Source of the DNA: Eublepharis macularius | Taxonomy: Eukaryota > Chordata > Lepidosauria > Squamata > Eublepharidae | Direction of reading: 5' to 3' | Assembly: GCF_028583425.1 (NCBI RefSeq) | Contig: NC_072807.1 | Location: 33,423,001 to 33,487,000 of the forward strand | DNA: 64,000 nt | Shown here: one piece after another, positions 33,780 to 41,530 of the stretch | Numbering within the stretch: position 1 is the first letter of the stretch | How the letters are laid out: each line of letters starts with the position of its first letter | The notes under the pieces: generated by a model | The model's database searches: none | What the model was told of the DNA's origin: nothing | Seen by the model: the letters and a program-made list of their open reading frames with translations, nothing else | Position numbers and translations under genes: made by a program

Positions 33780-34145
33780 ACTGTTTCAAGAAATCTCTAG
33801 CGAGCAGCTCCGCCGGAGGGACTTGGGGTGTGTGTGTGAAATGACTTTTCATTGTCCTCCCTGGTTTCCCCCAAGGGCCAGCCCCTCCCTGCCCCCTGCC
33901 CTCCCTGAGCCTAGCTTCATTCTCACGCAACGTCCCTGAAAGTGACCCCTCCACCACCACCCTTCTCCTTCTCCCCCCTAAGTCCCTGTTTGCTTTTGCA
34001 CGGGAAGCCCGGTGAAATGCAGCCAAACGCCTTCTCACGCAACCCGGGGCAATCTTTAACCTGCAAGGGGGTGGGGGGGACTGTGACCGGCACAAAGCAC
34101 TGCCTGGAAGCGGGCCTGATAAACTTTCACCCTGCCCTGCCCTGG
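33780..34145. promoter_or_regulatory. Candidate AhR enhancer with two canonical XREs
   Basis: TCTCACGCAA (inverse TTGCGTGAGA) occurs at 33923-33932 and 34033-34042. The second sits in CCTTCTCACGCAACCCGGGG, which has the same CTTCTCACGCAAC core as the well-known mouse Cyp1a1 dioxin-response element 3. It is followed by CAATCTTTAACCTG and, about 75 bases on, CTGATAAACTTTCACC. The second module recurs at 41410-41525. It lies about 11 kb upstream of gene D and about 22 kb from gene A. Function is inferred from motif and position. Confidence 0.65.
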
Positions 34146-34149
34146 CAAA

Positions 34150-34690
34150 CCCCCAGGCTCCACTAGATCCCTAACAGCTGCAACTGCCTTCTCCTGCAGA
34201 TGCAGACAAGATTTCCAAAATGGACTTTCTCCCACTTGCTCAAGAGATTCTCTCTTTGAGACCTGTGGGCTGCCCTAATGGTGTAAGCACCCCTGAAATC
34301 AGTGGGTTTGATGCCCAAGCCAATGCAGAGAAGATTGGGCTGTACATGAGAATGAACAGAGACCAGATGAGTGTTGTGGCACTTTGAAGACTGTCAAATG
34401 AATTGGGGCCTTAACGTTCACCCAGTTAAACATTCGAAAAGAGCAAGAGTCCAGTACCACCTATAAGACTAACAAGACTAACAAACACCATAAGACTAAC
34501 AAAAATTTTGAAGAAGTGAGCTGGGACTCCTGAAAGCTCATACCCTACCACAAATTTTGTTAGTCTTGTAGGTGCTACTGAACTCATGCTCTTTTCTATG
34601 CTTCAGACAGACTAACACAGCTAACCATCTTGACCAGTTAAACATGATCACTTCCCTTCAAAGCAGTGGCTGCCTCCTTTTTAGAGTAGC
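34150..34690. other. Intergenic; fragments of the GAGTCCAGTAGCACC repeat
   Basis: 34440-34640 holds a degraded foldback copy (GAGTCCAGTACCACCTATAA and, inverted, AGGTGCTACTGAACTCATGC). Nothing else recognised. Confidence 0.5.
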
Positions 34691-34695
34691 ACCTC

Positions 34696-35023
34696 CAGGT
34701 CTTTTTCTCAGCGGGAACACGGTGGAACAGAGTTCCAGTAACTCTTGAAAATGGTCACATGGCCGGTGTCCCCGCCCCCTGATCTCCAGACAGAGGGGAG
34801 TTTAGATCACCCTCCACGCCACTGGCGGCACGGAGGGCAATCTAAGCTCCCCTCTGTCTGGAGATCAGGGGGCGGGGACACCGGCCACGTGACCATTTTC
34901 GCAAAGGGTGATTTAAACTTTTAAAAACTCCCCCCTTGTTCCAGCTGACCCAAAGTGACATCTTTGTGCAGTCCTGAGTTCCACCAGTGAGTTCCAACAC
35001 CTTTTCCCAGAAAAAAAGCCCTG
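34696..35023. mobile_element. hAT-type MITE (CAGGGCTTTTTTTC family)
   Basis: It starts CAGGTCTTTTTCTCAGCGGG and ends AGAAAAAAAGCCCTG. Perfect duplication AGCACCTC at 34688-34695 and 35024-35031. 328 bp, with an internal inverted GGAGTTTAGATCACCCTCC part. Confidence 0.8.
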
Positions 35024-35865
35024 AGCACCTCTATATGAGAAGAGCAATCTATTTCCCACCACTCTACCATCTGAGCCCACCTTCAAAGAATCAATTTCCC
35101 AGTTTTCAAGAGCCATGGACTTTAGAATTGGGATCTAGAATGGAAGAAATATTAATAATAACTGCATTTATATACTGCTTTTATATACTGATCAGTGCCT
35201 CACCCAGAGTGGTGAACAAGTTAGTGTTATTATTATCCCCGCAATACAGCTGGGGAGCTGGGGCTGAGAGGAGTGGCTGACCCAAGGCCACCTACTAAGC
35301 TCATGGCAGTAGTGGGATTCAAACCAGTAGAGTGGTGATTTCCAGCAGAACCACTTAACCACTGTGCAGCCACCTGGGTTAACTGGAAGGAAGGTTTTAG
35401 CCCAATTCCATAGCCAGTCAAGGAAGTGACTGGACTCAGAAGTCTTCACGGTTTCCCCAGTCTTCAAAGAAAATTCCCGAAGAAGAGGTTCCACCTCAAG
35501 TCAGGAAGATAATCAGACTTCTTTGTCTATATTTTCCTATTCCTACACTATTCCGTAAAGACCTTATAATTTATATTTTCTGATATATGCCATTTCAAAA
35601 GTTCACATTACAATGTATAGAGAGCTCGTGGGGGGGGGTGCACAGAGAGTCATACCACGGACCCGGGAGACGCAGGTTCCAATCCGCATTCAGCCATGAA
35701 GTTTGTTGAGTGACCTTGGGTCAGTTCCTAGCCCACCTCCTAGGGTTGTGGTTGTTATGAGAGGTCCCTAGCTTGACATCCTCAGAGGAAGGGTGGGGTA
35801 GATCGATTTCTCCCCTGCTGACCCCAATACAAGCCAGTTTGGTACTGACCACAGACACATCAGAG

Positions 35866-36193
35866 CAGGGCTTTTTTCTGGGAAAAGAGGTGGTGGAACT
35901 CAGTGGTGGAACTCAGGACTGCACAATGACGTCACTTTGGGTCAGCTGGAACAAGGGGGGGATTTTTTTAAAGTTTAAATCGCCCTTTGCGGAAATGGTC
36001 ACATGGCTGGTGGTCCCGCCCCCTGATCACTAGACAGAGGGCAGTTTAGATTGCCCTCCGCGTCCCTGGAGCAGCACGGAGGGCAATCTCAGGAGATCTG
36101 GAGATCAGGGGGTGGGGCCACCAGCCATGTGACCATTTTCAAGAGGTGCCGTAACTCCGTTCCACCGTGTTCCCGCTGAAAAAAAAAGCGCTG
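35866..36193. mobile_element. hAT-type MITE (CAGGGCTTTTTTTC family)
   Basis: Starts CAGGGCTTTTTTCTGGG; ends GCTGAAAAAAAAAGCGCTG. Duplication CATCAGAG/TATCAGAG at 35858-35865 and 36194-36201. Same 328-bp length as the 34696 copy but opposite orientation. Confidence 0.8.
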
Positions 36194-39165: not shown

Positions 39166-39200
39166 CATTCATTCATTCATTCATTCATTCATTCATTCGC
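39166..39200. repeat. (ATTC)n microsatellite
   Basis: About eight ATTC units at the edge of the CpG island. Confidence 0.8.
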
Positions 39201-39751
39201 AAGGTTTGTCCCCCGCCTTTCTATCCCAATAGGGCCACCAAGGCGGCTAACAAATATGCAAAGGAAATGTGCCAAGCTGGAACATACACGCACACAATCA
39301 CACACCCAACACACACACACATTTGGAGCATTCTTTCATCTCAGCATTCTCCCACCTTATTATCCTGCATGTGTGAACCTGGCCTTATATGGAGGGAAGA
39401 GTACCGCTGGGGTCGTTTCAGCTCCCACAGCAGCGGGTCATGCACAGGACAGTGCCTAATTTGCAGGATAAAACAATCCTAAGAAAGTCTACTCAGAAGT
39501 AAGTCCCGTTTTATTCACAAAAGTGTTTTGGGCCTCCCGGATCCTCCTTTGGCACTCTAATCACTACACAGCGCTGGCACTAGTGTGTGCAGTTACCCTG
39601 AATAAAAGCACTCTGTGAATGCTCAGAGGCACTCTTCTCTGTTCCACTTCTTCTCTTGTGGGGGGTTGAAATAGGTTCCAGAGTTAAGTCCTGGCTCACA
39701 TTTAGGTTTTGAAGGAGTAGCTAGGAAAGGCCTGAGACTTAGCAATAGAAC

Positions 39752-39864
39752 ATCTATCTATCTATCTATCTATCTATCTATCTGTCTGTCTGTCTGTCTG
39801 TCTGTCTGTCTGTCTGTCTGTCTGTCTGTCTGTCTGTCTGTCTGTCTGTCTGTCTGTCTGTCTT
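39752..39864. repeat. (TCTA)n(TCTG)n microsatellite
   Basis: About seven TCTA units followed by some twenty TCTG units, next to the 3' end of a reverse tRNA-like SINE at 39870-40075. Confidence 0.9.
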
Positions 39865-40161
39865 ATCCCACCTATATCCCCCCAAGGGGACCCAAAGCTG
39901 CTTACATCATTCTCCTCTCCTCCATTTATCCTCACAACAGCCCTGTGAGGTAGATTAGGCTGAGAGTGCATGACTGTCCCAAAGTCACCAAGCCAGCTTC
40001 CATGGCAGAGTAGGGATTCGAACCTGGGTCTCCTGGATCGTAGTGGGACACTCTAACCACCACACCATACGCCCAGTGTTCTTTTCCTTTTTTTAAAGGA
40101 CCAGGTGATGTGAAAGAATAGAGATCCTGGAGGGCCGCTGCCAGTCACATCAGACCATACA

Positions 40162-40398
40162 GAGGGCCAAATTACAAGTGATGAATGACACAGGTTGGAC
40201 ACTTGTCAGCTTCCCTCAAGTTTTGATGGGAAATGTAGGCAGCTCGGCGGAATGTTGTACAAGTGACAGTTGAAAAGTCCATTGGACAGCAGTCGGAGAG
40301 CCGAGCTGCAAGACCAAGACGCCTACATTTCCCGTCAAAACTTGAGGGAAGCTGACAAGTGTCCAACGTGTATCATTCGTCACTTGTAGCTTGGCCCT
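40162..40398. mobile_element. Palindromic MITE related to the GAGCCAAGC family
   Basis: GAGGGCCAAATTACAAGTGATG on the left and CACTTGTAGCTTGGCCCTG on the right. The middle has CTTGTCAGCTTCCCTCAAG and its inverse. It is the same family as 2819-3019 and 53539-53772 with a variant middle (CAATGGACTTTTCAACTG in the 53.5-kb copy). Confidence 0.55.
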
Positions 40399-41129
40399 GA
40401 GATTGTAGACCAATGGTCATAAGGCAGCTCCAGGTGTTCAGGTCTGGCCTAACCTGTTTCAATGCACTAGTCTATTTCAGAGTCAAGTCTGTTGCGGAAA
40501 TCAGGAACGCGGAGTATTTCATCCAGACAAACCAAGGCAGAATATTTAGTTAATTACTTTATTTATAGGCTATCTTTCTTCCCCGGACTGGGGCAGATTA
40601 CACAATTTCAAAACAACAGTATCAGCGCAAAGAACGGACAGACAGCAAAATAAACCGATGTAGTAAAAACAAGATAATGCGTTCAATAAACAGCGCAATA
40701 AACTCCAATAAACAGCGCAGTAAACTACAACCCTGTTTCCTTTTCTCGAAGCGCCCTCCCCAATAAATTTCATTTTATTACAGCTCTGTTCCCTTTACAA
40801 AACTGCCCCTCCTGAACAACAGGACAGCATGAAAATAAAGCGACTGGATTAAAAAAAAATAGATGAAAGGGGGCAGCCAGTTTAGCGCCGGATCCCAGAA
40901 CCGTTTCTGAGATGCTACGCAGTCTTTTCATCTGACGAAGAGAGCTGTGGTTCTCGAAAGCTTATGCCTCAATACAGTTGGTTAGTCTTAAAGGTGCGAC
41001 TGGACTGTTTGCTATTTTGCAACTACAGACTAACAGGGCTCTGGAGCTATTTTCAGGGAGGGCTGACTGCCTCTTTTCAGGGCTGGTCTGATGGGAGCAT
41101 TGCAAAACAAAGCTATTCGTGGTGGAGAC

Positions 41130-41530
41130 AGCCAGCCCTTCTCCCCCGCAGTTCTGGGGCATCGTGTGTCAATCTCTGCCCGGCGCGTTCGTGCAAACGG
41201 ACCGGATTGCCTGCCGGGTTGCATTTCCCCAGTTTCTGGGCTGGGCTTTTCCTGGGAACCATCCCCAATTGAGGAGCGCTCCTCCGCCCCTTTCTCCGCT
41301 CCGTGCCACCTCCGGCTGCCTTGGCACGCCACGGATGCCCGGCTGCTCCTCTCCTCCGCCGCCACCCCCACCCCGATCACTTCCCGATTTCGTTTCCGCG
41401 GCACCAAGAGCCGCCGCGCCGCCAAAGCGCTTCTCACGCGAACCCGGGCAATCTTTAACCCGGAGGGCGCTCGCAGGGAAAGCGGGCCGGCTCCTTTGAC
41501 TGATAAACTTTAACCTCTGGAGCGGGATGT
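41130..41530. promoter_or_regulatory. CpG-rich segment with second copy of the AhR enhancer module
   Basis: 41423-41462 (GCCAAAGCGCTTCTCACGCG, AACCCGGGCAATCTTTAACC) parallels 34023-34062. 41499-41516 (TTGACTGATAAACTTTAACC) parallels 34117-34132. The XRE is TCTCACGCGA at 41432-41441 (inverse TCGCGTGAGA). The spacing between the two halves is kept within a few bases while the middle has diverged, which argues for selection on both halves. About 3.5 kb upstream of gene D exon 1. Function inferred. Confidence 0.65.

Follow-up and report, generated by a model that had tools for sequence, protein, structure and literature searches.

Closely placed, divergent CYP1A genes raise the question of whether they draw on common dioxin-responsive sequences or whether each gene keeps its own. 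The question arises in a 64-kb stretch of the 2.24-Gb Eublepharis macularius genome (NC_072807.1, 33,423,001-33,487,000; hereafter the window), where an initial annotation had described a duplicated, two-part module with xenobiotic response elements (XREs) for AhR/ARNT between CYP1A genes A and D, and had proposed that it could serve both. We find that this CYP1A element is real, confined to the cluster as far as searched, and present in five copies, not two; both copies first described stand, and those at 1975-2024, 3431-3464 and 16561-16594 had been missed.

The module is about 45 bases long, and window self-comparison together with a genome pattern search places each of its five copies in the CYP1A cluster. 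All five contain the core TNGCGTG, and in all five CACGC is followed, after exactly 9 nt, by CAATnnTTAACC. In window coordinates, used from here on, the copies are:

1975..2024, minus strand: module copy, found by window self-comparison, pattern search and matrix
3431..3464, minus strand: module copy, found by window self-comparison and pattern search
16561..16594, minus strand: module copy, found by window self-comparison and pattern search
34014..34132, plus strand: module copy B, the first segment of the initial annotation, with its second motif CTGATAAACTTTCACC at 34116, and the nearest of the five to mouse DRE4
41418..41516, plus strand: module copy D, the second segment of the initial annotation, with its second motif CTGATAAACTTTAACC at 41500

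The two shared segments originally reported, at 34023-34132 and 41423-41516, lie where they had been placed, as do their XREs at 34033-34042 and 41432-41441. Copies B and D are 84% alike over 43 bp (E 2.5e-7 within the window), and they share the 16-mer CTGATAAACTTT(A/C)ACC at 15 of 16 positions, a level reached by none of 300 base shuffles of both 100-bp stretches. The paired GGTTAAAG motifs that had been attributed to both modules are present in copy D, and the second motif of copy B reads GGTGAAAG instead. Furthermore, the copy at 1975-2024 is 88% alike to copy B over 50 bp, and is thus closer to it than copy D is. Four independent copies are 77-88% alike across 30 nt, and 23-35% beyond that. 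As a non-circular test, a matrix was built from copies B and D only and scanned over 144 kb (60 kb to the left, the window, and 20 kb to the right); it scored 38.6, 29.4 and 29.4 bits at the other three copies, and 14.9 bits at the best remaining site. When the genome was searched for the module pattern, that is, the XRE core CACGC, a 9-nt spacer and CAATnnTTAACC, five matches were obtained, all in the CYP1A cluster, and a longer form of the module with up to two mismatches allowed returned the identical five. Similarity searches gave no copy outside the cluster, although such searches have little power at this length.

Against the chance level set by 100 dinucleotide shuffles of the window, the extended XRE TNGCGTGAGA occurs six times (shuffle mean 0.22, maximum 4) and the bare TNGCGTG 18 times (shuffle mean 9.9, maximum 18). 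Positions 1-30,000 hold four TNGCGTG sites, three of which are the modules and the fourth of which lies at 1236-1242. Among the extended XREs apart from the five modules are:

33921..33930, minus strand: additional extended XRE TTGCGTGAGA, 112 bp from the XRE of copy B and lacking the CAATnnTTAACC half
38815..38824, minus strand: extended XRE TCGCGTGAGA, within a CpG island

The first had been recorded at 33923-33932, two bases off. The second is possibly a decayed sixth module reduced to its XRE part, with a score of 14.0 bits that falls under the chance site at 14.9. The CpG island around it (38501-39250) carries TNGCGTG at 38741, 38818 and 39035 and GCGTGAG at 38624; its two long open frames matched no Pfam family, and the island may be a promoter not yet recognised, or another region responsive to AhR. 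An extended XRE TCGCGTGAGA is also found at 32119-32125 within an element that is repeated in the window, so that some of the high-affinity XREs here may be repeat-derived.

The genes to which the modules have to be related are arranged in the order CSK-Z-A-B (a pseudogene)-D-EDC3, with Z, A and B on the minus strand and D on the plus strand:

886..1018, minus strand: predicted promoter and exon 1 of gene Z, from alignment with the gene A region
7356..12222, minus strand: gene A, a CYP1A gene matched over coding exons 2-7
13125..13277, minus strand: predicted promoter and exon 1 of gene A, with a weak TATA at about 13270 and the donor ACAGAG/GTATTT, aligning with 886-1018 of gene Z
17438..27420, minus strand: CYP1A pseudogene B, between genes A and D, exons 3-7 matched, exon 7 split over two frames
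44999..45125, plus strand: predicted promoter and non-coding exon 1 of gene D, with a canonical TATAAAG at 44999, CCAAT just before it, the donor CGCAG/GTAACC at 45125, and a CpG island
47408..54920, plus strand: gene D, a CYP1A gene matched over coding exons 2-7 and closest to CYP1A1 among solved structures

Genes Z, A and D match all six coding exons 2-7, those of Z lying beyond its left edge, at window coordinates -9 to -5320, and no match was found for exon 2 of pseudogene B. The weak-TATA promoter and exon 1 are conserved between Z and A. Compared with solved structures, exon 2 is closest to CYP1A1 and next to CYP1A2, with 347 and 307 bits for D and 308 and 302 bits for A. CSK-like exons, 83 and 78% alike to a query peptide, lie at C18:33336416-33339942, about 78 kb left of Z, and the exon at 61303-61467, which has an LSM14 domain, presumably belongs to EDC3. 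Pseudogene B has, between its exons 6 and 7, a stretch (20310-23406) with mirror-image open frames (20405-21214, plus; 22667-23200, minus) that resembles a long inverted repeat. A repeat of about 330 bp with internal inverted arms occurs at 34694-35024, 35862-36194 and 46962-47292 (84-87% alike), one copy ending about 115 bp upstream of the gene D start codon, and units of about 85 bp form a head-to-tail array at 37888-38452, the same repeat being found elsewhere in the window.

All module distances rest on the predicted transcription starts of Z, A and D, relative to which modules lie upstream at about -1.0 and -2.5 kb for Z, at -3.4 kb for A, and at -3.6 kb (copy D) and -11 kb (copy B) for D. 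In each of the five, CACGCNA is oriented in the direction of the downstream gene, copy B being counted with gene D. Only copies B and D, and the module of gene A (A1), lie between divergent CYP1A genes with the CSK-like and EDC3-like genes outside. To that extent the earlier interpretation holds; its further step, a single bidirectional AhR enhancer made up of B and D and shared by genes A and D, in the manner of the human CYP1A1/CYP1A2 intergenic region, is less likely, and we regard it as rather unlikely, because gene A owns the module at 16.57 kb, and because the predicted start of A is about 21 kb from copy B and 28 kb from copy D, with the dead gene B in between, and both copies point to gene D, from whose predicted start they are separated by about 11 and 3.6 kb.

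Judging by its sequence, the module is probably an AhR/ARNT site joined at fixed spacing to an HNF1-like site, and kept by each intact CYP1A gene. The HNF1 consensus GTTAATNATTAAC is matched at 9 of 12 positions in all five copies, with a P of 0.013 that is uncorrected for the use of 15 consensi. AhR/ARNT and HNF1 would be bound adjacently in a fixed register, the bound pair would make the transcription of each CYP1A gene inducible and liver-biased, and the unit would have been copied within the CYP1A cluster. More tentatively, this may be a rigid 9-nt composite AhR-HNF1 element, present nowhere else in the genome and kept before each duplicate, that reads xenobiotic induction and liver identity as one unit; in mammals the AhR half would persist as DRE4, and the HNF1 half would have been lost or moved apart from it. 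We consider it unlikely that, beside a functional AhR site, the second half is bound by a different factor (HNF4/COUP, TCF/LEF, C/EBP or an unknown one) or extends the AhR/ARNT footprint. That the copies are functionless, passive leftovers of duplication within the cluster seems very improbable. Finally, a dispersed repeat, a possibility that the initial annotation had raised and that a repeat-rich window would favour, has next to no chance, since both genome patterns give the same five cluster sites and the similarity searches, weak as they are at this length, show none elsewhere, so that at this stringency it is refuted and only copies with more than two mismatches to the longer pattern could remain.

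The presence of an AhR site alone does not predict induction, and its flanks matter (PMC4013641). Five natural copies with equal spacing and differing flanks, placed before three CYP1A genes and beside a dead one, would offer a direct test of AhR enhancer grammar. The module would also show a concrete way in which CYP1A induction can depend on liver identity, and would give the dioxin response beyond mammals an anchor in sequence.

The element is of a known kind, a dioxin response element (DRE), with a fixed second half of which we found no description, and our literature search found no study of a squamate CYP1A promoter. Copy B closely resembles DRE4, the strongest dioxin-responsive site of mouse Cyp1a1: all 21 aligned bases agree, with a single 1-nt gap in the alignment, and the copy is the single genome occurrence of a pattern derived from mouse DRE4. 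We equate mouse DRE4, at -981, with the oligo called 'DRE3' in gel-shift studies. It is numbered -1029 to -1004 in PMC2700084. In the mouse DRE4 the spacer is 10 nt and is followed by CACC, whereas the gecko modules have 9 nt and then CAATnnTTAACC, a half not seen within the 34 mouse bases compared; furthermore, the mouse has seven tested DREs in 1.4 kb of one gene, whereas here the modules are spread over three genes, at upstream distances of about 1-11 kb. In mammals CSK and EDC3 lie outside the divergent CYP1A genes. The mammalian CYP1A1/CYP1A2 dioxin-responsive element cluster and bidirectional regulatory region were reportedly described by Nukaya and Bradfield in 2009 and Ueda in 2006. 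The gecko locus resembles that region in that XREs lie in the interval of a divergent CYP1A pair and CSK-like and EDC3-like genes flank the whole, and differs from it in having three minus-strand gene copies (Z, A and the broken B) and modules that flank gene A on both sides, not just in the interval of the divergent pair. In the upstream enhancer of human CYP1A2, Chung and Bresnick reportedly found half HNF-1 sites; as in that enhancer, liver-factor sites, HNF1-like here, lie upstream of a CYP1A gene, but in the gecko they stand at a fixed 9-nt spacing from the XRE and in five copies.
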